A stretch of DNA of 64,000 nucleotides from Hondaea fermentalgiana. Taxonomy: Eukaryota > Sar > Bigyra > Thraustochytrida > Thraustochytriidae. The DNA is taken from positions 723,443 to 787,442 of the forward strand of contig NPFB01000012.1 of NCBI GenBank assembly GCA_014084085.1, given 5' to 3'. The position numbers and the translations under genes were made by a program. This document shows, one piece after another, positions 11,023-57,618 of this stretch (positions are counted from its first letter, which is position 1; every line of letters starts with the position of its first letter). The notes below the pieces were generated by a model. It ran no database searches. It saw only the letters and a list, made by a program, of their open reading frames with translations, and was not told where the DNA came from.

Positions 11023-11766
11023 TTTCGCGAGGCAGACGCCTTTCGCGCACCACGAGTTGAAGAAGTCAGGATGAGAGGAGAGAGAGAGCGAGAGAGAGCG
11101 AGAAGCAAGTTGTTTTGTGAGGCCCTCTTTGCGGCTTTGCCTGCCGTCTTTCTTGGCTCGCGGCCTTGGCGGCGTTCTGCCTCACCTCCCCACTCGCTCG
11201 ACTTTCCCTCGCCCTTGCCCTTGCCTTTGTCCTTGCCTTTCTCCTCTCCTTCTCTCCCTCCTTCCCTCGCTCGCTGGAGTTCTTGCTTCCTATCGTGACT
11301 TCCTTCCTTTGGTTTGCCGCCGATATCGGCACGCGCGAGGTTGGGAGCAATATTGCCGCGCCTTGCCTCGCCTTGCTTCGCCTCGCCTCGCGACGTCCTG
11401 CTTCACCCCACCCCGACACAAAGTAGACGTTGAGGTGCAGCGGGGCTTGCGCGTGCGTTCCCACGCAAGTATGTATGCCTGCCGCGCGTCCCCCGAAGGT
11501 CCCTCGAAAGCTCGCTCGCTCGTAAAGTGATCCAAGAGGAAATCGGTGATCATCGTATCCGGCGGCAACGGCTAGGTCTGAGAACGCAAGGGTGTGTATG
11601 CATGTCAGAATGAGATTTGGGAACACTGGCACGAGGCATCCACAAAAAAGAAAAAAAATGCGCATCGCATCCGATGCGATGATCTAATGTCAAAGCAGAC
11701 AAGCAAGGGGTGCGCAGTCTGGCCGCAAACTCCGACGGACCGTGGCGACGAGACACTTGCGGAGCG
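11023..11766. promoter_or_regulatory. Divergent intergenic region with CT/GA-rich and CCTTG/CCTCG repeats
   Basis: 744 bp between two divergent start codons. It holds a GA-rich stretch (11080-11105), a C/T-rich stretch (11200-11275) and a 5-bp degenerate repeat of CCTTG/CCTCG (about 11359-11391). Forward frames here are low-complexity and not convincing as protein. An A-rich run lies at about 11645-11660. Confidence 0.5.
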
Positions 11767-13029
11767 ATGGTGGTCGTACGCACGATCACGGCGTCGCTGA
11801 CGCTTCACAAGGGCGACTGCGAGGACGAGAATGTTTTGGACACCAAGATGAAGAAGGTCGTGGGCTTCCTCGCGCGTGCCCAGCAAACTCTGCTCGAAGC
11901 GGGTGAGGCCAAGGTAGAGGCGGTACAAACCGTGCGTGTTTCATGCAACCCAGTAGAGGAGTTTGTGGACTTTGACGAGGGGGACGAAAAAGCTGTTCTT
12001 GCCCAAATTGCGAGACTTGCCGCTGTCGCAGCCAAGCATGAAGTGGGATTCCTCAGCCTGGGCCCCATGCGCAGCAGCAAACACCTGGCATTGATTCCCA
12101 AGATTCTCGCACTCGCGCCGCATGTGAATATGTCTGCATCTGCTGTGCAGAATAAAGACGACGCGCCCGACTTTGGACGGGCGCTTCAACTTGCAGATGT
12201 AACCAAGCAAGTGGCTCTTCTCGGCGAGGATGGCCAAGGTAGCTTTCGCTTTTGTGTGAGCTCAGAGGTGCCCGCCGGAACACCGTTCTTCCCAGCGTCG
12301 CATTTTGCTGCAAACTACGAGAACGTATGCTTTGCGATTGGTCTCGAGACGAGCTCTGTCTTGGTTCAAGCATGGGAGGTTGCTGCAAGTGCGGAAGAGG
12401 ACGAAATCGCAGCTGTGCATGCCAAGTGTCAATTCGAGCTGACGACTCGCATGGCAGATCTGCTGCGGCCTCTTGGAGAAGCGTGCGCCACGCTTGCAAA
12501 TCACGAGGGTGCTACCTTTTTTGGAATTGACGCGTCCATGAATCCCAGTTTGTCTGACCCTGGCATTGGACACGCCTTTGGAACGGTGCTGAAGCGCATT
12601 GGGAAGGAGTCCCCTGGATCTGCTCTTTTCGGCTCTACAGGAACACTGTCGCTGTGCTTCTTGCTGACCAAGAGCATTCGCGATGCTGGTAAAGCAGCTG
12701 GGGTGACCTTGTGTGGATACTCGGGTCTCATGCTGCCACAGATGGAAGACAAAGGAATTGCCGCGGCCGCGGCGGCGGGCGCCTTTACTGTTCAGGACCT
12801 GCTCCTCTTTTCCTCAGTATGTGGCGTCGGTATCGATACGGTCCCGATTCCCGGAGAAACAAGTCGCGAGAAGCTAGCACTCTTGTTTATGGACATGTGG
12901 GCGCTCTCGACCAAATGGAGCAAACCTCTTTCTTGCAGGGTCCTTCCCGTGGCTGGGAAGAAGGCAGGAGAAGAGACGAATACGTCAAATCCTTTCTTGT
13001 GCAACTCGGTTGTCTTGGGTTTGACTTAA
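11767..13029 (+). CDS. DUF711 (UPF0210) family protein
   Basis: 420 aa from the ATG at 11767; the 19 codons before it read like 5' UTR, and family members begin with (V/I)RTITAFL-like sequence, as here (VVVRTITASLTL). Family blocks are visible through the whole length: FFPASHFA, CFAIGLE, FFGIDASMNPS, FGSTGTLSLCFLLTKSIRDAG, CGYSGLMLPQMED, the block around LLLFSSVCGVGIDTVPIPG, and SCRVLPVAGKKAGE. DUF711 proteins are common in bacteria and archaea, form a fold discussed as related to glycyl-radical enzymes, and have no established reaction. I see no targeting peptide, so cytosolic is the default. Its 3' UTR runs into a tandem duplication shared with the convergent FN3 gene. Horizontal origin is possible but not shown here. 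Confidence 0.9.
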   Translation: MVVVRTITASLTLHKGDCEDENVLDTKMKKVVGFLARAQQTLLEAGEAKVEAVQTVRVSCNPVEEFVDFDEGDEKAVLAQIARLAAVAAKHEVGFLSLGPMRSSKHLALIPKILALAPHVNMSASAVQNKDDAPDFGRALQLADVTKQVALLGEDGQGSFRFCVSSEVPAGTPFFPASHFAANYENVCFAIGLETSSVLVQAWEVAASAEEDEIAAVHAKCQFELTTRMADLLRPLGEACATLANHEGATFFGIDASMNPSLSDPGIGHAFGTVLKRIGKESPGSALFGSTGTLSLCFLLTKSIRDAGKAAGVTLCGYSGLMLPQMEDKGIAAAAAAGAFTVQDLLLFSSVCGVGIDTVPIPGETSREKLALLFMDMWALSTKWSKPLSCRVLPVAGKKAGEETNTSNPFLCNSVVLGLT

Positions 13030-17358: not shown

Positions 17359-19065
17359 TCACTCACATGTCGCGTGATCGTTGACACGGCGCAGAGCATT
17401 CTCAAAATTTTCGACAGACCGCGCCATGTTGGAAAAGTCGCGACCTGTGGCTACCCAATGCTCAATCATGTCATCCAACTCAAAAGGGGCCTGCACGGCG
17501 TCAATAAAGCAGGCAGGATGGCGGGCCAAGTCGCCATAGAGATCATATACTTGAGACACCTCGACATCACTCATTGGGGAAAGGGATGCCCACTCGATCA
17601 AAGCACTCGCCTCGTATCGGTCTTGTCGCTGCCACTCATCCCATCCTGAAAACCAGGCCTGAATGTCCGCGTCCGATGCACGTAGAGCGGCTTCCTTAGC
17701 GTCGCGAAAATCCGCTTCTGGTACACTGACGAGTGACGGGTAGAGCATCTGCGTTGCGGAAACAGGCAAGTCGAGGTCTTCACGTAGCGCAATCTCGAAT
17801 CGCAGATACACCTCCACGTCCTCTCCAGCGCGAGTAGCCACGGCAGCGCGCTGAGCAACGCGCTGCGCATGTTCATGAACAATGCCAAGTCGCATGATTC
17901 GGATTCCTAGCGCGCGAAGCGCTTCACGGTCCCCACGCGCGTGAGCAATGTGGTGCCATACCACGATCTGATTTAAGGCCCACACAATCATGTCTCCGCA
18001 TGTATCGATGCTGCTTGCAATCTGGACAAGCAGCTGCGGCCGACTCAATTCATCGTCGACGATAAGTTCTAGGGCCTCCCAAGCACGCTGCGCAAGTGCT
18101 GGACGTAATGCCTCAACTCGAAACTCTTTGGTACTGCGAAGCTTGTGCAAGAAACGAGTGAGGGCGCCCAAGTCAGCTGAATCGTTGATGGCGTTTTCAA
18201 GACCATGAGCAAGCACAGTGGAAGGCCCGTTTGGTTTTACGTCACCCATATCTCTCTTGACATTGTCTGGCAACGCGGTCCACCAAAAATTCACCGCGTC
18301 GGCAAGATTTGCAAAAGGTTCGGGTTCTTGGAAAGAGAGAAAGATTCGCAGTGCCGGATGCGCGAGGCCTCGGAGACGCTCAGCTTCCTCTTCGTCGACT
18401 CCGGTGTCGCGCAGTCGCACATCGCCTCTCGACTCGATCATCGAAAGCGGCAAGCTTGTGACCCCGGCACAGTTCTCGATGATGATGTCGCCATCGACAC
18501 TGACTCCGTCGGGGAGAGTTTGTAAGACTTCACAGCGCAAGAGGTAGAGGTCGCGGTGAACACGTAGATATTGAGGAAGTGAGACGAGGGCGCAAAGCTC
18601 GTCGAGCATCAAGAGACCCTCGATCTCCATGGCGGACGGAAGCGTGTCAAGGCTTGGCAGGCGCTCGAGCTGCAAATCTCCTTTGAGGAGCAGGGTTTCA
18701 GGAAGCTCTCGAAAAGAGGTGCAGTCCGCAATGCGTAGACTTTGCGTGATCAGATCTGCTGGCAAGTCGACCAAGAGTGGCAAATTGCACAGCTCGAGCT
18801 CACACAGCACTTGAAGCTGGCTTGGAAGCGAAGCAAGGCTCACCAGTCCATCCACACGTAGGTTCCGTGCGACCATTGCGGTTGTTAGTTCTGCTTCGCC
18901 TCTCTGTTCATATTGAGCGTACTTTTCCTCCGTGTCTTCCTCTTCAAGTGCTCGTTGATTGTCGCGTACGAGCACGTCTTGCATCTCTGGCGTCCTCCCC
19001 GTTGTCCTCGTCGTCGTCGAGGGCGCCGTCCCTCTTTGCGATGATCGTCCTCGAAGAAGCCACAT
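17359..19065 (-). CDS. LRR protein with a NEL-type (IpaH/SspH-like) E3 ubiquitin ligase domain
   Basis: 568 aa from the ATG at 19065 (alternative start 18984, 541 aa). An N-terminal acidic helix (RDNQRALEEEDTEEKYAQYEQ) is followed by about eight short ~20-residue LRRs with an LP..L spacing (SLPSQLQVL, DLPADL, ELPETL, TLPSAM, SLPQYL, TLPDGV, SLPLSM). The C-terminal ~300 residues match the NEL domain of Shigella/Salmonella/Pseudomonas secreted ligases: LADAVNFWW at the start, a Cys-x-Asp motif in SIDTCGDMIVWALNQ (catalytic Cys at ~356), then VEVYLRFEIALREDLDLPVS and the W-x-x-W element of WFSGWDEW. NEL enzymes form a thioester on that Cys and pass ubiquitin to substrate. Codon use looks like its neighbours and there is no intron. 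Transfer from bacteria is inferred from the family's distribution. Confidence 0.82.
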   Translation of the reverse strand: MWLLRGRSSQRGTAPSTTTRTTGRTPEMQDVLVRDNQRALEEEDTEEKYAQYEQRGEAELTTAMVARNLRVDGLVSLASLPSQLQVLCELELCNLPLLVDLPADLITQSLRIADCTSFRELPETLLLKGDLQLERLPSLDTLPSAMEIEGLLMLDELCALVSLPQYLRVHRDLYLLRCEVLQTLPDGVSVDGDIIIENCAGVTSLPLSMIESRGDVRLRDTGVDEEEAERLRGLAHPALRIFLSFQEPEPFANLADAVNFWWTALPDNVKRDMGDVKPNGPSTVLAHGLENAINDSADLGALTRFLHKLRSTKEFRVEALRPALAQRAWEALELIVDDELSRPQLLVQIASSIDTCGDMIVWALNQIVVWHHIAHARGDREALRALGIRIMRLGIVHEHAQRVAQRAAVATRAGEDVEVYLRFEIALREDLDLPVSATQMLYPSLVSVPEADFRDAKEAALRASDADIQAWFSGWDEWQRQDRYEASALIEWASLSPMSDVEVSQVYDLYGDLARHPACFIDAVQAPFELDDMIEHWVATGRDFSNMARSVENFENALRRVNDHATCE

Positions 19066-19519
19066 TCTCACTCTCTGGCCTTGTCCGCAACGCGTGGTGC
19101 GCGCACGGCACGTCACGTCTCGCGGAGCTTCGCAGCCCAGCGTCGCCCCTCCGCCGGGCCGGGCCCGCGTCCGTCTCGTTCGCCGTCTACTGCGAAATCT
19201 CGCGAGCCGGAAAACGCGTTCCGCCAAAACGGGTTCTGCAAAGACTACGTTCAAAACGTAGAGTGGAGTAGAGTAGAATAGAGTATAGCGCCGGAAGTGG
19301 GTTTTCCGACTTGCGGGCGGGGATAGCCGACTTGACGCGCCCACCTAACCACCGGCGTATCCTCCGCCGCGTTCTTGGCTGCTCGCAGTCGCTGCTCCTG
19401 CGACGAGTCGAGCAGAAGAAGAACCGCGCGTACGTGCCGCGCGTGCGTGCGAGCGCGGGCTGGGCTGGGCTGGGCTGGGCGGCGCACCGCGGCGCGGCGC
19501 GGGGGAGGAGGAGGAGAAC
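19066..19519. promoter_or_regulatory. Divergent intergenic region with TAGAG and GGGCT repeats
   Basis: 454 bp between the NEL gene and RAD50. It holds a degenerate (TAGAG)n run at 19259-19288 and (GGGCT)n at 19457-19480. The latter ends 40 bp before the RAD50 start. Confidence 0.6.
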
Positions 19520-39263: not shown

Positions 39264-42035
39264 TTAGTACAGCGCGGCGTCGAGAGCCCGCTGCATCGAG
39301 GCGTTGGCATCGCCACCGTCCCGCGCAGGAAAGGGAAAAGGCTCGCCGGTAATCTTCTCGTACAACATGATGTAGCGACGCGAGAGCTCGGCGACGAGAT
39401 GAGCAGGGGCCTCAGGAAGTACCTCGTCCTTGTAAGGGTCGCAGCGCTCCGTGTACCAGAGACGCACAAACTCCTTATCAATGTGCTGCGGGGAGCGGCC
39501 AGCTTCGACATTGGCACGATGCGTCTTGTCATCGCCCACCCAGTATCGCGAGCAGTCCGGCGTGTGGATTTCGTCAATGAGGAGAATCTCGCCAGTTTCA
39601 AGGTCACGACCAAACTCGTACTTGGTGTCGACGAGGATGAGACCATGCTCGCTAGCCACCTTTTGGCCAAAGGCAAAGAGTGCCTGGGCCTTTTCGTGGC
39701 AAAAGTCCCAGTCTTCCTTGCTCATCCAGCCATCACGCACAATGGTGTCGGCAGAAATGAGCTCATCGTGCTCGTCGCTCTTGGTCGTAGGCGTGCACAG
39801 GTTCTTCTCGAGCTTCTCGTTCTTACGCAGACCGTCTGGAAGGGAGTGTCCGCAGTACTCGCGCACGCCCTTGTTGTAGTGCGTCCACATGGAGGTACCC
39901 GAGCTTCCCGCAATGTACCCGCGCATGACAAACTCAATGGGAAAGGTCTTGCAGCGGCGCGCAAGAGTCAGGTTCGGATGCAGCGGGTTCGCCGAAGAGT
40001 TCGAGGCATGCAGCTGGTTCTTGATAATGTGCTCCGTCTTGGAGAACCACCACAGCGAAACGAGGTTGAGCACGGCACCCTTGAAAGGAATACGGGCAAG
40101 AGGCCTGTCAAAGGCCGTCAGGCGGTCCGTGGTGACGAGAACCACGTTGCGGCCGTCGTCGTAGCGATCACGGACCTTGCCAACGTACTTGGCCACCTCG
40201 GTCTGGCCCTCGCAAGGCGTGAGGTTGAGATCCGTGGCATCGACTGTGCAGTTGATGTTGGCGCGAATGCGGGGCAGGTAGAGGTGCGTCTTGTCCTTGT
40301 TCGTATACTCGCTGAGATACTGCTCGTACTTGACGTTCTCAAGGTGCGCCGCCTTCTCGTGCACGGAATCGCGCTGGTCCGTGTGGTAAGCATCGAGCTC
40401 GCCGCGGAGACGCGCGCCCATGGCGCCCTCTGAGGCAGCCAACATGCGCACGGCCAAGAGGCCGGCATTCATCGAGTTGCCGATGGCGACCGTGGCCACG
40501 GGGACGCCGCGGGGCATCTGCACAATGGAGAGGAGAGAATCCTGACCATTGAGGGTCGAGGTCTTGACCGGAACGCCAATGACCGGAAGCGGCGTGAGCG
40601 CCGCAACCATGCCGGGCAGGTGCGCGGCACCGCCAGCGCCAGCCACAATTACGCGGATTCCGCGGCCCTGGGCCGCCTTGGCGTACTCGTACATGCGGTC
40701 GGGCGTGCGGTGCGCAGAGACCACAGAGAGTTCAAAGGGAACGCGAAACTGCGTGAGCATATCAGCGCAGGCGCGCATCGTGGGCAGATCCGAGTCGCTG
40801 CCCATGATGATGCCAACAACGGGACTGGCCGCAGCGGCGCCGTCCTTTCCGCCCATTGTCTCAACGTCAGTTTCGTCGAGAGGCTCGCCAAGCTGCACGA
40901 GACGGCGGCGCAGCTCGGGCATGTCGGGAGCGGTGACGGTGATGTGTCCAAGCTTGCGACCGGGGCGCGAATCCTTGCCATACCAGTGGACCTTGGCGCC
41001 CGGAACGGTAAGAGCAGGGCGCAAGGCCTCGAGGGTTTCCTCTTCTGAGGCGGCGCCAAGGATGTTGATCATGGCGGCCGCGCCAACGCGAAGGCTCGGA
41101 TCGCCGAGGGGCAGCCCAGAGACGGCGCGAAGATGCTGCTCGAACTGACTGGTCACGCACGCCTCAATGGTCAGGTGGCCCGAGTTGTGGGGACGCGGGG
41201 CCATCTCGTTGTACAGCACGCGGTCGCCGCCCATCCAGAACATTTCGATGGCGAAAACACCGGCGCCCTCGATGGCACGCACGGCGCACTCTGCGACGCG
41301 CTGGGCCTCGATACGCGCACTTTCGGGGAGCGGGAAAGACGGCGGGACCACAACGACACGGCAAATGTTGTCGGCTTGGCGGGTTTCGACGACGTCGTAG
41401 CAAGAGGTATTGCCCTTGCGGTCGCGCGCCACGATGCACGCGAGCTCGGCCTTGAAGGGGGCCCAGCGCTCCAGGTAGACACCACCAGCCTCGACAGCCT
41501 TGCCAAGGGACTGGAGGGCCGCTTCAATGCCGTCGGCAGACTGAATGACCGCGTTGCCTTTGCCATCATAGGCCATGCACCGACTCTTGAGCATCACGGG
41601 GAAGCCGCCAAGACGCTCCTCCGTGGCTTCGCGGATGGCACTCACCGTGGGCTCTACCTTTTCGTAGTCGCCAATGGGGACTCCGCGCTTCGCCATGACA
41701 TCCTTTTGCACGGCCTTGTCGGCGATGATGCGCAGAGCAGATGGGGCCGGGTGTACGGGGCGGCCCTGCTCGGCCAGCTTTTCGAGCCCGTCAACGTTAA
41801 CGTGTTCGATTTCCACGGTGGTCACGTCGCCCTCGAGGTTCACGACGTTGTCAAAGTCGGTAAAGCTTCCCTCCACGACCCTGCACACCGGCGCGGCGGA
41901 GCTCTTCTGGCCCGCCGGGTCCAGGCACACGACGTCGAGGCCAAGCCGCGCTCCGTCGAGCGCCATCATGCGGCCCAGCTGCCCGCCGCCCAGCACGCTC
42001 ACGGTGCGGGCCACGCCGTCCAGTCGGTTGGCCAT
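39264..42035 (-). CDS. Trifunctional PurK-PurE-PurC purine biosynthesis enzyme
   Basis: 923 aa from the ATG at 42035 (upstream codons are low-complexity leader). Three domains in order. PurK (N5-CAIR synthetase, ATP-grasp) ~12-385, starting [12 protein letters not shown], with [11 protein letters not shown]. Class I PurE (N5-CAIR mutase) ~405-555, with GSDSD at 412-416, SAHRTP at 440-445 and [12 protein letters not shown]. PurC (SAICAR synthase) ~612-905, with [31 protein letters not shown] and [12 protein letters not shown]. Together they turn AIR into SAICAR in three consecutive steps of de novo IMP synthesis in the cytosol. Fungi and plants fuse only PurK-PurE; animals fuse PurC with class II PurE. 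All key motifs are present, so all three activities are expected. Confidence 0.95.
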
Positions 42036-42696
42036 CGTGCCTTTTTCTCCAAGTTCTCTCCTCTCCGCCGCCTGCGCTCGCTCCTCCTCTCCTCCTCGCT
42101 CTGCGCGCTCTCTCCCGCGCCCGGCGCGTCTCGAGTCTGTCAGTCGCTTCGAGGCTGGATCCAACAACCAACTGCATCCAACGGGTGGCTCCGGGGCACC
42201 GTTTCGCCGTCATCGCCTGTAGTCAAAAGCCAGAGTGCGCGCACCAGCTGCACCTGCACCTGCAACTGATAGGATAGTGTGCCTGGCTGAGGCTGCAGAC
42301 AAGCAAGCCTACATGTGCATGTTGCACGAGCAGGAGCCAGAATGTGTGCAGTGCAGGCAGTGTATACAAAATGGAGCTTGGCAAAGACGAAGACCGAATT
42401 AAACATCGGGAAAGGGGGGGGGGGGGGGGGGGGGGTGGTCCTTATTTGATGTTGGTGGCGTGGCGGTGGAGGTGATGAAGTTTGTCGCAGGTATAGAGCC
42501 CAAGCGCGAGAGACCATCAGGAAAAGAACAAAGTTTTTTCGGGGTGTTTTCTTGTTTGCTTGTCTACGTATGTGTTTGTCTTTTTTGTTTGTTTGCTTAT
42601 TTGTTTGTATGTTTGTTTGCTCGGGGACTTACCAGCGCAATCGATAGGACCCCCCATTTAAAAATTAAAAAAAATAAATCGAGGTGATCAGCCTGA
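42036..42696. other. Intergenic region with a 22-nt poly(G) tract and TTTG repeats
   Basis: 661 bp between two minus-strand genes. It contains poly(G) at 42414-42435, TGCA-rich sequence near 42310-42360, and TTTG/TTTGC-type repeats at about 42545-42622. No coding frame is supported. Confidence 0.6.
42414..42435. repeat. Poly(G) tract, 22 bases
   Basis: Twenty-two uninterrupted G on the plus strand, in the promoter/5' region of the PurK-PurE-PurC gene (which lies on the minus strand, so its transcript sense is poly(C)). Confidence 0.95.
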
Positions 42697-53717: not shown

Positions 53718-54402
53718 GGCTCTTTTTGGCGCTTGATGTGAGTCCAATCAAGGTATGTGTACGCTTCGTTGAGATTTGACTTCTCGCTCCCCAAAACTTC
53801 TTGGGCGTCCGGATAAAGTAAGCTAGCAAGTTCACGAGCGCAAAGAGAGAGAGTGTCTCTGTGCCTGCACGATAAGCCAGCGTGCTCGAAGACAGACGTG
53901 ACGTGACGTGACGGTCGGCGCTCTCGCTCCCCAAAGAAGAATCTTTCTCGGTTCCACCCGCCTGGCGGCAGCGCGCAGGTAGCGACGCTGCTCTTGCGCA
54001 GCCTTCTCCTCCTCCTCCTCCTCGCTCGCCCTGGCCACAGCTCGAGCGGCAGGGATCGGCGTCTGCTGCTCGATCAATCCTTGTTCCTCCTGCATCATGA
54101 AGACGCCCACGGAGAGCGAGCGAAGCCCAGGGGCAGAAGCGAAACCGCCGCCTCCAACGTCCTGTGAAGCGTTACGAATATAGCGGTTTTGAGGCCACGC
54201 GCTGCCAGTCAGCATTCGCGCGAGAAGAGGACCAGACCATCCACGCTCGGCGCTCGGCGGGAGCTCGCGCAGCGCTCGAGCCTGCGACGCGCGGGAAGGC
54301 AGCTTGCTTCGCTTCTGGGTCGCGCAGGAATCCGGCCGCCGCCGCGAGACCGGCGAGCGCGGCGCCCGAAGAAGGGCGGCCGGCGACGAGGACTCACCCA
54401 CC
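53718..54402. promoter_or_regulatory. Divergent intergenic region, contains one possible small ORF
   Basis: 685 bp between the M50 protease start and the cysteine desulfurase-TtcA start. The minus strand holds a 128-codon frame (53832-54215), annotated separately. The rest shows no feature. Confidence 0.5.
53832..54215 (-). CDS. Possible small hypothetical protein (128 aa)
   Basis: ATG-started frame. Its first ~40 residues (SAWPQNRYIRNASQ...GLRSLSVGVFM) lack acidic residues except one and could be a mitochondrial presequence. They are followed by a charged helical stretch (ARASEEEEEEKAAQEQRRYLRAAARR). It lies 114 bp upstream of, and in the same direction as, the M50 protease. No family is recognised, and a GC-driven spurious frame is equally possible. 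Confidence 0.28.
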   Translation of the reverse strand: MLTGSAWPQNRYIRNASQDVGGGGFASAPGLRSLSVGVFMMQEEQGLIEQQTPIPAARAVARASEEEEEEKAAQEQRRYLRAAARRVEPRKILLWGARAPTVTSRHVCLRARWLIVQAQRHSLSLRS

Positions 54403-57400
54403 ATGGCGCCCAACGAAAAGGCGGCCGAGACCCCGACCCCTCCGGGCGCAAGGGCCAAGACGTCGGAGGAGGAGGCAGAGGAAGACGGGGACGCCTTTCG
54501 CGAGTTTGTGGACGTGGGCGAGGCAACGGACGATCGCAAGACACAAGATGCGTTGCCCGCGGAAAAGGCCTTTGAGAGACTTCGCGCTGGCGTGGTCGGC
54601 ACGCTCGACCCCGTGGACACGCCCTTTGGCGTGAAGCCGCTCGTGTACGCAGACTGGACTGCGAGCGGTCGCGCTTTTGGACCCATCGAAACCTATGTGC
54701 GCGAAAAGGTGTACCCGTTTTACGCCAATACGCACACGTCCTCGTCAATTACGGGATTGCAGTCGACTTGTTTCCGCGCTGAAGCGCGGCAAATCATCCA
54801 GCAGGCCGTCAATGCCAACACACGGACTGACGTCGTCCTTTTCGCGGGAACAGGCGCTACGGGCGCCGTAAACAAGCTCGTAAGCGTGCTCGGTCTCGAC
54901 GCCCCGCTCCGGGCCGACGAAGTCTCTCGCCCGCGCCCCGTCGTCTTTGTCGGGCCCTTTGAGCACCATAGCAACCTTTTGCCTTGGCGCGAGTCAAGCG
55001 CAGAAGTCGTCTGCGTGCCCGAACGCCAGGATGGGCTTGGCATTGACCGGGACGCCTTGGCGGAGCTCTTGCGGACGTACGCGGACCGCCCTCTTTTGGT
55101 CGGCGCTTTTTCGGCTGGGTCGAACGTCTCTGGCGTCCTCGAGGATGTCGATCGCATTTCTGCGCTCTTGCACCGCCACGGGGCCCTCGCGTGCTGGGAC
55201 TATGCTGCGGCTGGACCTTATGCGCGCATCGACATGAACCCCGTTCTTGCGGGTGAGGACCCCGATCGTCCCTTTGCGTACAAGGACGCAGTCTTTCTCT
55301 CCACGCACAAGTTTGTGGGAGGCATTAATACTCCGGGTGTCCTGGTTGCCAAAAAGAAGCTCTTTGGCAATGCCGTACCTGGAACGGGTAGTGTCGGTGG
55401 CGGCACGGTTTACTTTGTGCGCGAGGACGGCCACAGATATCTCTCGAACCGCGTCGAGCGGGAGGAAGGGGGCACCCCAGATGTGGTGGGCGCCATTCGC
55501 GCGGGCCTTGCTTTTCAGCTCAAACAGAGCGTGGGCTGGGCGAATATCGAGGCCCGTGACAAGGTGATTGGTCGCAAGATCGCGGCCAAGCTCGGTTCGG
55601 AGCCCAAGCTGGTCCTGCTCGGTCCCAAGTGGGGCGACGCGGAAGGTAGCCGGCTGCCCATCGTGTCTTTCCTGGTTCGTCACGGTACCCGCTTCTTACA
55701 TTATAATTTTGTGTCTGCAGTTCTCAACGACGTCTTTGGAATTCAGACGCGAGGCGGATGCATGTGCGCCGGACTTTACGCGCAGCGTCTTTTGGGCCTG
55801 TCTCGCGAGTCTGTCGAAGCCATCGAGGACGAGCTCTTGCGAAACCCCAAGCACTCGGAGTATCTGCGCCCAGGCTTTAGCCGTTTGAGTCTTGCCTACT
55901 TTGCGAGCGACGAAGAGCTCGACTACGTCCTTGACGCAGTGTGCGCTGTGGCGCAGCTGGGCTGGAAACTTTTGCCGCAGTATCGTTTCAACACGCGGAC
56001 CGGTGAATGGAAGCACAAATCGCGTTTCACCAAGTTTCCGGGGCGCCTTTGGCTCGGCGACGCCAATCTCTTGGGCGCGACGCCCTCGGAACCGGAGAAC
56101 GAGGATCGTGCTCGGCCCGACTCTTATGCGTTTCCTGATCTCCTGCAGCAAGGCATTCAACAGATGGACGCCGCCGCAGAAGAGTCGGCCAAAGAGACGC
56201 TTGGAGACCAGACGCAGCTCTTTACGCCCGAGGCTGCGCCGCTCCGGTGGTTTGCCATGCCTTCAGAGGTTCATGCAGAGCTCAGCGCTGGCAGCAACAA
56301 GTGGGCCGCAGCTCCCGTGGAGGTGCGCGCCTCGGAGGGGAAAGAAGGAGAAGAAGACAACTCCGCGCTCACCTCGAATCCGGTGACCGGGCCTTTGGAC
56401 CCCTTTAAGTATTGGGCGATGGTGCGCGAGAGCATGCCAGTGGCACCTGCGCTGACTGCGTCGGATGAATCAGACAATGCAGCAGACCGCGCGCGTAAGC
56501 GTGGGCCCGAGGCCAAGGAAGAGCCCGCGAAGCGAGCCAAAGCGAAGACGGAAAAGTCCTCAACTGTGGTGGTGTGCGAAGACAACTCGTGCTTTCGCGT
56601 GCGCAAGCGTGACAAGTACCCACTCAGGACGGCGGAGGTAATTCGTAGCGATCAAGCGGCGCAGAATCTTGCACAACCGCAAGCAGATGCCGCGGTGGTG
56701 GCGCCGAAAGCGCCGCCCAAGGCACTCCGTCCTCGGATCCCCAAGGGCATCTTGAAGAACGTCGGCAAGGCATTGGCACAATGGGAAATGATCCAAGAAG
56801 GGGATCGACTCTTGCTCGGACTGTCTGGCGGCAAGGATTCGCTGGCCCTTTTGCACGTCTTGCTGCACGTGCAAGCCAAGTCGCCCGTCAAGTTCGAACT
56901 CGCTGCCTGCACCGTGGACCCGATGACTGAGGCTTTTGATCCGAGTCCTCTGATCCCGTATATGGCCTCGCTCGGCGTAACGTACCACTACTTGAAGGAG
57001 CCAATCTTTGATCGTGCCAAGTCTGGCTCGTTGCAAGGAACATCGATCTGTAGCTTTTGCGCGCGTATGAAGCGCGGAGCGCTTTACGGCTGTGCCCGGG
57101 AACACGGCTACAACAAGCTTGTGCTTGCGCAGCACTTGGACGATTCGGCAGAGACGCTCATGATGGGTCTTTTCCATAATGGCATTGCCCGCGCCATGAT
57201 GGCGAATTACGAGGAGAAGAAGGGCGACGTCCGTGTAATTCGTCCGTTGGCATACGTGCGTGAGCATGAGACCAAGGCGTTTTCTTATGCGGCCAAGCTC
57301 CCTGTGATTAACGAGAATTGCCCGGCGTGCTTTGAGGCACCGCAGGAACGCCAGCGCATCAAGCGAATGCTTGCCAAGGAGGAGGCCACGTGCCCACGGA

Positions 57401-57618
57401 TGTTTCACAGTTTGCGCCGTGCGCTCTTGCCGCTCATGGACGCAGACCTTCTCACCGAGATGTCAGCCATCACGAGTCGAAGGACGGATCTGGCAAACAT
57501 GGAGCAGCGGCGTGTCCGGGCTGCGGACCACAAGCAGCGGAAGCAAGAGAAAGAGCAGGCGAAGGACAAGGAGAAGGAAAAGGAGCACGAGGAGGTCGCC
57601 GCAGAAATCAAGGCTTAG
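54403..57618 (+). CDS. Cysteine desulfurase-like/TtcA-like tRNA thiolase fusion
   Basis: 1,071 aa from the ATG at 54403. Residues ~50-560 form a class V aminotransferase: YADWTASGR, the PLP-contact region FEHHSNLLPWRE, CWDYAAAGPY, the Schiff-base Lys303 in STHKFVGG, and a Cys loop RGGCMCAG with Cys453 and Cys455. A ~190-residue linker with basic KR-rich patches follows. Residues ~775-1020 match bacterial TtcA: PP-loop SGGKDS at 808-813, CSFCARMKRGAL (Cys883/886), HLDDSAETLMMGL, IRPLAYVREHE and NENCPACFEAP (Cys973/976). TtcA uses ATP and a [4Fe-4S] cluster on such Cys to make 2-thiocytidine in tRNA, with sulfur from a cysteine desulfurase. Having both in one chain suggests direct sulfur transfer. 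A Lys/Glu-rich tail ends the protein. The tRNA position is inferred. Confidence 0.92.
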   Translation: MAPNEKAAETPTPPGARAKTSEEEAEEDGDAFREFVDVGEATDDRKTQDALPAEKAFERLRAGVVGTLDPVDTPFGVKPLVYADWTASGRAFGPIETYVREKVYPFYANTHTSSSITGLQSTCFRAEARQIIQQAVNANTRTDVVLFAGTGATGAVNKLVSVLGLDAPLRADEVSRPRPVVFVGPFEHHSNLLPWRESSAEVVCVPERQDGLGIDRDALAELLRTYADRPLLVGAFSAGSNVSGVLEDVDRISALLHRHGALACWDYAAAGPYARIDMNPVLAGEDPDRPFAYKDAVFLSTHKFVGGINTPGVLVAKKKLFGNAVPGTGSVGGGTVYFVREDGHRYLSNRVEREEGGTPDVVGAIRAGLAFQLKQSVGWANIEARDKVIGRKIAAKLGSEPKLVLLGPKWGDAEGSRLPIVSFLVRHGTRFLHYNFVSAVLNDVFGIQTRGGCMCAGLYAQRLLGLSRESVEAIEDELLRNPKHSEYLRPGFSRLSLAYFASDEELDYVLDAVCAVAQLGWKLLPQYRFNTRTGEWKHKSRFTKFPGRLWLGDANLLGATPSEPENEDRARPDSYAFPDLLQQGIQQMDAAAEESAKETLGDQTQLFTPEAAPLRWFAMPSEVHAELSAGSNKWAAAPVEVRASEGKEGEEDNSALTSNPVTGPLDPFKYWAMVRESMPVAPALTASDESDNAADRARKRGPEAKEEPAKRAKAKTEKSSTVVVCEDNSCFRVRKRDKYPLRTAEVIRSDQAAQNLAQPQADAAVVAPKAPPKALRPRIPKGILKNVGKALAQWEMIQEGDRLLLGLSGGKDSLALLHVLLHVQAKSPVKFELAACTVDPMTEAFDPSPLIPYMASLGVTYHYLKEPIFDRAKSGSLQGTSICSFCARMKRGALYGCAREHGYNKLVLAQHLDDSAETLMMGLFHNGIARAMMANYEEKKGDVRVIRPLAYVREHETKAFSYAAKLPVINENCPACFEAPQERQRIKRMLAKEEATCPRMFHSLRRALLPLMDADLLTEMSAITSRRTDLANMEQRRVRAADHKQRKQEKEQAKDKEKEKEHEEVAAEIKA

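Follow-up and report, generated by a model that had tools for sequence, protein, structure and literature searches.

A NEL-type E3 ubiquitin ligase gene family with a predicted U-box-like C-terminal domain in the genome of Hondaea fermentalgiana

We have analyzed a stretch of 64,000 nucleotides (hereafter, the window) from the thraustochytrid Hondaea fermentalgiana (contig NPFB01000012.1, positions 723,443 to 787,442) and a gene on its minus strand, which encodes short leucine-rich repeats (LRRs) followed by a NEL-type E3 ubiquitin ligase core. The gene probably belongs to a native and diversified thraustochytrid E3 family, whose members would use NEL cysteine catalysis and dock the ubiquitin-loaded E2 enzyme (E2-Ub) through a U-box-like module. 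At the level of sequence, the family is native to the genome, keeps the LRR-NEL order and an invariant Cys-x-Asp motif, has divergent relatives, and carries a conserved tail that was not found in the bacterial NELs compared. The initial annotation of the window had recognized the NEL domain and its eukaryotic setting, had considered the ligase native or captured and possibly defence-related, and had suggested a profile search, a structure comparison with SspH2 and IpaH and a tree with bacterial NELs as checks.

The minus-strand frame 17359-19344 was open over 661 codons. The ATG at 19065 is likely the true start, because the closest homologue, the database protein P0002, is similar in size (567 aa) and in its first residues (MWLF, against MWLL in the window protein). 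It falls short of proven because conservation is otherwise low across the first 65 alignment columns of the two proteins (48 positions with 23% identity). The gene limits originally given, 17359..19065, fit this likely gene. The database model of the window gene, P0001 (505 aa), begins at residue 157, 63 codons further in. The features of the gene are listed below, with residue numbers (C449, 386-573, 598-654 and the others) counted along the 661-codon frame and not along the 568-aa protein; the alignment rows are described further on.

17359..19065 (-): NEL gene, 568 aa from the ATG at 19065 (frame residue 94), a single open frame
18385..18876 (-): short leucine-rich repeats, residues about 157-320, from phmmer, model strands and Foldseek LRR matches
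18280..18312 (-): ANLADAVNFWW element between the LRRs and the catalytic core, from the IpaH9.8 alignment, partly conserved in the family
17626..18189 (-): NEL catalytic core, PF14496 match at residues 386-573, with a model resembling IpaH3, SspH2, SspH1 and SlrP
17998..18000 (-): codon of the catalytic cysteine C449 (Cys-x-Asp), in 33/33 protist-type and 15/15 bacterial rows
17992..17994 (-): codon of the aspartate D451 (Cys-x-Asp), in 33/33 protist-type and 15/15 bacterial rows
17632..17655 (-): W-x-x-x-W-x-x-W element (W564, W568, W571), W571 being present in 33/33 and 15/15 rows
17383..17553 (-): predicted U-box-like domain at the C-terminus, residues 598-654, where bacterial NELs carry the helical thumb that binds E2-Ub

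The Pfam NEL profile (PF14496) matched residues 386-573 of the window protein with 93.8 bits, well above its cut-off of 24 (E 1.3e-26), which bore out the proposal that this eukaryotic gene contains a NEL domain. The NEL assignment is confirmed, far beyond chance. The landmarks that had been named were all present: LADAVNFWW, SIDTCGDM (with C449 and D451), VEVYLRFEIALREDLDLP and the tryptophan element (W564/W568/W571). In a phmmer search against PDB sequences, the alignments to IpaH9.8 (5.9e-11) and IpaH3 (4e-10) ran from residue 160-162 to 574 and spanned both the LRRs and the NEL core, in agreement with the IpaH/SspH order claimed before. The NCBIfam models of IpaH, SspH2 and SlrP gave 25-33 bits against cut-offs of 550-1243, as fits a distant member. 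The AlphaFold2 model of P0001, built with 26 sequences, had a predicted local distance difference test score (pLDDT) of 89.5 and a predicted template modelling score of 0.66. Its best Foldseek matches were IpaH3 (5.6e-12), SspH2 (2.5e-11) and SspH1 (5.4e-11), with SlrP also retrieved, so that the suggested structure comparison gave the suggested partners. The window protein is therefore predicted to have the all-helical catalytic fold of the solved NELs.

The IpaH, SspH and SlrP proteins of Shigella and Salmonella (3cvr, 3g06, 9h6w, 4puf, 6lol) thus share with the window protein the order of LRR, linker and NEL core, the Cys-x-Asp motif and the predicted LRR-plus-core fold. The Hondaea proteins differ from them in being encoded by the eukaryote itself, without a secretion context, in having the U-box-like domain where the bacterial proteins have their C-terminal helical thumb, and in that Pfam calls ARM repeats but no LRR in at least one paralogue (L018). 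With its eukaryotic genome and neighbours, the window gene is not an IpaH/SspH effector in the sense of a bacterial protein secreted by the type III system.

Relatives were collected with three protein searches, which scored only candidates sharing exact words, so that relatives elsewhere could escape. The search with residues 735-935 of P0003 returned 23 proteins at E <=0.01, and the two earlier ones returned 3 matches each. The proteins of the third search, P0002 and the genome's own genes amounted to 33 distinct protist-type sequences, after removal of P0001, P0003, P0012, P0018 and P0022 as duplicates. These were 14 Hondaea sequences (13 from the genome and P0017), P0013 (labelled Durusdinium trenchii), P0010 and 17 others, the eukaryotic assignment of these 17 resting on the tree. 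The 15 bacterial rows consisted of P0004 and 14 of 20 Pseudomonas loci. L023, L030, L031 and L033 were left out as redundant or short, and L034 and L035 because they gave no hit, probably owing to a plus-strand reading of loci whose matches are on the minus strand. The 15 rows correspond to 13 genes, since L025/L039 and L029/L038 are each one gene fetched twice. The Cys-x-Asp motif was invariant in all 48 rows, and 19 positions were common to both sets at the thresholds used.

When the Hondaea genome was searched with PF14496, 12 contigs were found to carry 13 matches. Each exceeded the cut-off and lay in an open frame, the shortest having 661 codons and the longest 3546. The 12 genes other than that of the window scored 76-105 bits in hmmscan. 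A further Hondaea NEL protein, P0017, matched nothing in this assembly at more than 49% identity, and the organism thus has at least 14 NEL proteins. Pfam called N-terminal SPRY domains in L015 and L016, a SAM domain in L014 (read over 2671 of its 3546 codons; L021, its upstream part, was not used) and ARM repeats in L018, which is annotated as importin alpha. Judged by eye, the N-termini of L020 and of the related P0023, P0025 and P0026 are hydrophobic and rich in cysteine, and the remaining paralogues have LRR-like or no further Pfam domains. The N-terminal part thus varies (LRR, SPRY, SAM, ARM, hydrophobic segments) and the core and tail are constant, as expected of ligases with different substrates or places.

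Some of these architectures recur among the relatives. The NEL core is joined to ARM/importin-like repeats instead of LRRs in L018, P0011, P0012 and P0013, on several contigs. SPRY accompanies NEL in L015, L016 and P0014, the former two having in addition LRRs of a second type by Pfam, and this architecture resembles that of immune sensors. L020, L012, P0023, P0025 and P0026 formed a supported subgroup (100/99), most of them with the cysteine-rich hydrophobic N-termini seen by eye, and are possibly membrane-bound. The database model P0022 merges the L020 NEL protein with a downstream tubulin gene; as the two are separate open frames in this genome, its name “tubulin” is probably a gene-model error.

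The description of the window protein as an LRR-NEL protein stood, but it had overlooked a C-terminal domain as well as the spread of N-terminal modules. The phmmer matches to 10 of the 12 solved NEL chains ended at residue 569-579, within 8 residues of W571, and those to SlrP and SspH2 extended to residues 589 and 612, respectively. The match to SspH1 ended at chain position 453, which would be about residue 613 if the chain begins at 161. In the excerpted account of SspH1, the catalytic region spans residues 405-622, with Cys492, and the E2-Ub-binding thumb residues 623-697, the latter being formed by a pair of long antiparallel helices together with a small helical segment (PMC12506513). 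Because the homology to the solved NELs ends near the start of the thumb, the C-terminal domain of the window protein stands in the thumb's place.

This domain was conserved in 32 of the 33 protist-type sequences (mean column identity of 49% over the 32 rows). The prediction for the C-terminal piece (pLDDT 90.6) showed short strands and three helices, 13, 11 and 7 residues long; the two-long-helix thumb of the solved bacterial NELs, which lies outside the Pfam NEL definition, was not seen in it. The Foldseek matches of the predicted tail were to U-box and RING-type folds. Its profile matches to the Prp19 and UBE4B U-boxes were weak but consistent (E 0.2-0.8), and hhalign aligned it to the U-boxes of Hondaea (P 1.1e-4, probability 57, 0/300 shuffles). 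A U-box-like fold is predicted for the tail on these grounds. An outright U-box call was tried and failed, the Pfam model (PF04564) matching 0/12 and 0/32 pieces; hence the name “U-box-like”.

The tail resembles the U-boxes of Prp19 and UBE4B (E4B) in its predicted fold and in the order of DPV strand, helix and D-x-x-N elements. At the positions of loops 1 and 2 that we take, from U-boxes, to be the E2 contacts, a hydrophobic loop-1 residue was found in 32/32 rows, DPV or DPI in 26/32 and the loop-2 proline in 1/32. The tail differs from those U-boxes in being missed by the Pfam model, in lacking this proline in 31/32 rows and in sitting behind a cysteine-type core. We have also built a tail model of the family from an alignment (A7) of 32 of the 33 C-terminal cores, L019 being excluded as degenerate. 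It matched 38/38 protist-type sequences (the 33 distinct ones and 5 duplicates), mostly by construction since A7 holds nearly all of them, and none of the 21 bacterial NEL sequences compared, among which L034 and L035 were in the wrong strand.

In the mechanism that we propose, the U-box-like module would dock E2-Ub, C449 would accept the ubiquitin in a thioester bond, and a substrate bound by the N-terminal part would receive it next. In the window protein, the LRRs would present the substrate and, like those of bacterial NELs, may hold the ligase off until the substrate binds. Because the module takes the position of the E2-Ub-binding thumb of bacterial NELs, it seems that the E2-docking part was exchanged, a RING-type module having replaced the helical thumb. 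RBR ligases combine a RING-type E2-docking module and a catalytic cysteine in one chain. The proposed logic would be alike, as an independently built relay from a RING-type module to a cysteine, with an unrelated catalytic domain and the opposite order of modules. A bolder version, to which we give slightly less than an even chance, is that thraustochytrids have a separate native E3 class, an independent counterpart of the RBR ligases in which a U-box-like module feeds a NEL cysteine. It would have arisen when a NEL gene swapped its helical thumb for a U-box, and would then have grown into a family with LRR, SPRY, SAM, ARM and hydrophobic N-termini, maybe acting as intracellular sensors of microbes or viruses.

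Alternatively, the proteins could be native ligases that work like the bacterial NELs, with the core recruiting E2-Ub and the tail being structural or binding something else. The near-complete loss of the loop-2 proline and an altered loop 1 in the window copy are compatible with this. So is the observation, in the excerpted text of a 2014 review, that E2 mutations abolishing RING or HECT activity leave NEL transfer functional (PMC4133400). However, the conservation of the tail, its location at the place of the thumb, its predicted E2-docking fold class and the hydrophobic loop-1 residue kept in every row argue for a docking function, and we regard this alternative as rather unlikely. It is highly improbable that the family consists of pseudo-enzymes, with the NEL fold kept as a substrate-binding or scaffold domain that transfers no ubiquitin. 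Fold similarity by itself is no proof of activity, but the Cys and Asp were present in 33/33 sequences and are among the 19 positions shared with bacteria, and in a decayed family this deep some copies would be expected to lack them.

In a tree of 48 rows, made along the lines suggested by the initial annotation, the 33 protist-type rows formed one side of a 100/100 branch, apart from the 15 bacterial rows. The Hondaea genes were scattered among the 33 and paired with sequences from other contigs, the supported pairs being the window protein with P0002 (100/99), L013 with P0016 (100/99), L018 with P0011 (100/100), L016 with P0014 (100/100) and L009 with P0005 (100/100). The architecture tracked the pairs, P0011 having ARM repeats like L018 and P0014 a SPRY domain like L016. 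The partner contigs seem to belong to other species, from several genomes; if so, the non-identical partners of shared architecture indicate that the family diversified before the species split. Many inner branches were weak (16/44 starred), and P0004 and L019 had long branches.

The large NEL proteins of environmental Pseudomonas (L022-L041) lie on the other side of the 100/100 branch. They share the Cys-x-Asp core, with 27-31% identity over the tblastn-matched stretch, and differ in that the family's own tail model found no U-box-like domain in them. As in Hondaea, there are several matches per genome, each of three Pseudomonas genomes (G001-G003) having between 4 and 6 NEL matches, some of them partial, within very long open frames. 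The record labelled as the dinoflagellate Durusdinium (P0013, on a contig of 11,256 bases) and P0010 (on one of 5,881 bases) could reflect transfer or contamination. The tree has no root inside it and thus does not establish the direction of transfer; capture of NEL from bacteria is the simpler reading, because the eukaryotic spread found is narrow.

The window gene is flanked by a PH-domain gene and by a RAD50-like gene, with a tubulin-tyrosine-ligase-like gene also among the neighbours, on a contig of 1.10 Mb in a genome of 36.0 Mb; the initial annotation had rightly placed it amid ordinary eukaryotic genes. Of the 10 frames flanking the other NEL loci, 5 had clear Pfam hits (tubulin, PQ-loop, ABHD18, kinesin and papain-type protease), 2 had weak ones and 3 none. 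The Hondaea fermentalgiana database proteins P0003, P0012 and P0018 were found whole, letter for letter, in the frames of this genome. Contamination or a chimera at the window locus, the possibility raised at the outset, is therefore very unlikely and was rejected on the eukaryotic neighbours, the 12 contigs and the flanking Pfam hits. A viral origin was rejected too: two scans of viral contigs gave no relative, and nothing pointed to a viral source. Among viral models, Foldseek retrieved phage proteins annotated as E3 ligase or SspH2, and also LRR proteins, with 2.0e-3 as the best E value, which indicates that LRR and possibly NEL-like phage proteins exist.

The GC content at third codon positions (GC3) of the 13 NEL genes, some of them partial, was 0.568-0.714, compared with 0.589-0.688 in four neighbouring genes, and the codon fit was positive in all 13. 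A recent capture of a bacterial gene, perhaps an inactive passenger, would suit the otherwise Gram-negative occurrence of NELs with short LRRs, the lack of introns, and the GC3 (0.568) and codon fit of the window gene, the latter being the lowest of the 13 and barely above that of a shifted frame. It is highly improbable, given the 13 open genes on 12 contigs, a window core with at most 22% identity to any of the 15 bacterial rows, the long stem to bacteria, the conserved partners of shared architecture on other contigs, the intact Cys-x-Asp, and a RAD50-like neighbour that is also a single open frame and makes the single-exon structure unremarkable. Of the two possibilities in the initial annotation, the native family is the better supported, and a single recent capture was rejected on the tree and the paralogues.

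Among the matches listed from the open-licence literature, we found no report of NEL in thraustochytrids, and the only published mention of a NEL-like domain in genes that belong to a eukaryote itself concerns NLR-like genes of the green alga Klebsormidium, in which the LRR (“ODAL”, SSF52075) is called homologous to NEL (PMC7145615). As excerpted, that account does not discuss the catalytic Cys, and its NEL mention apparently refers to LRR similarity. In the excerpts retrieved, a NEL review treats bacterial members (PMC9320238), and PF14496 is among the RING models used for a search in Giardia (PMC7029713).

The window's other long frames include those for a pyruvate kinase, a WD40-cyclophilin and a sodium/proton exchanger. 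At 39264-42167 (-), PurK, PurE and SAICAR synthetase domains lie in one open frame, a fusion of purine-synthesis enzymes. The frame at 54304-57618 (+) joins a class-V aminotransferase to a PP-loop ATPase domain and is possibly a tRNA-modification fusion. A DUF711 protein (237 bits), of a family known mainly from prokaryotes, is encoded at 11710-13029 (+).

Thraustochytrids are cultured, and some have been transformed in laboratories, so that the questions of activity and E2 docking can be tested in organisms that are harmless. In its excerpted text, the 2014 review noted that bacterial E3s often resemble eukaryotic E3s structurally, the NELs excepted, and put forward the possibility that eukaryotes encode NEL enzymes of related structure (PMC4133400). 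The Hondaea family answers this idea directly, at the level of sequence. Ligases of this type, so far described from proteins that bacteria inject, form here a marine protist's own family, and the apparent replacement of the thumb by a U-box-like domain would be a sign of an enzyme rebuilt for native use. If the tail docks E2, the family would be a natural experiment on a cysteine ligase that changed its E2-docking part.
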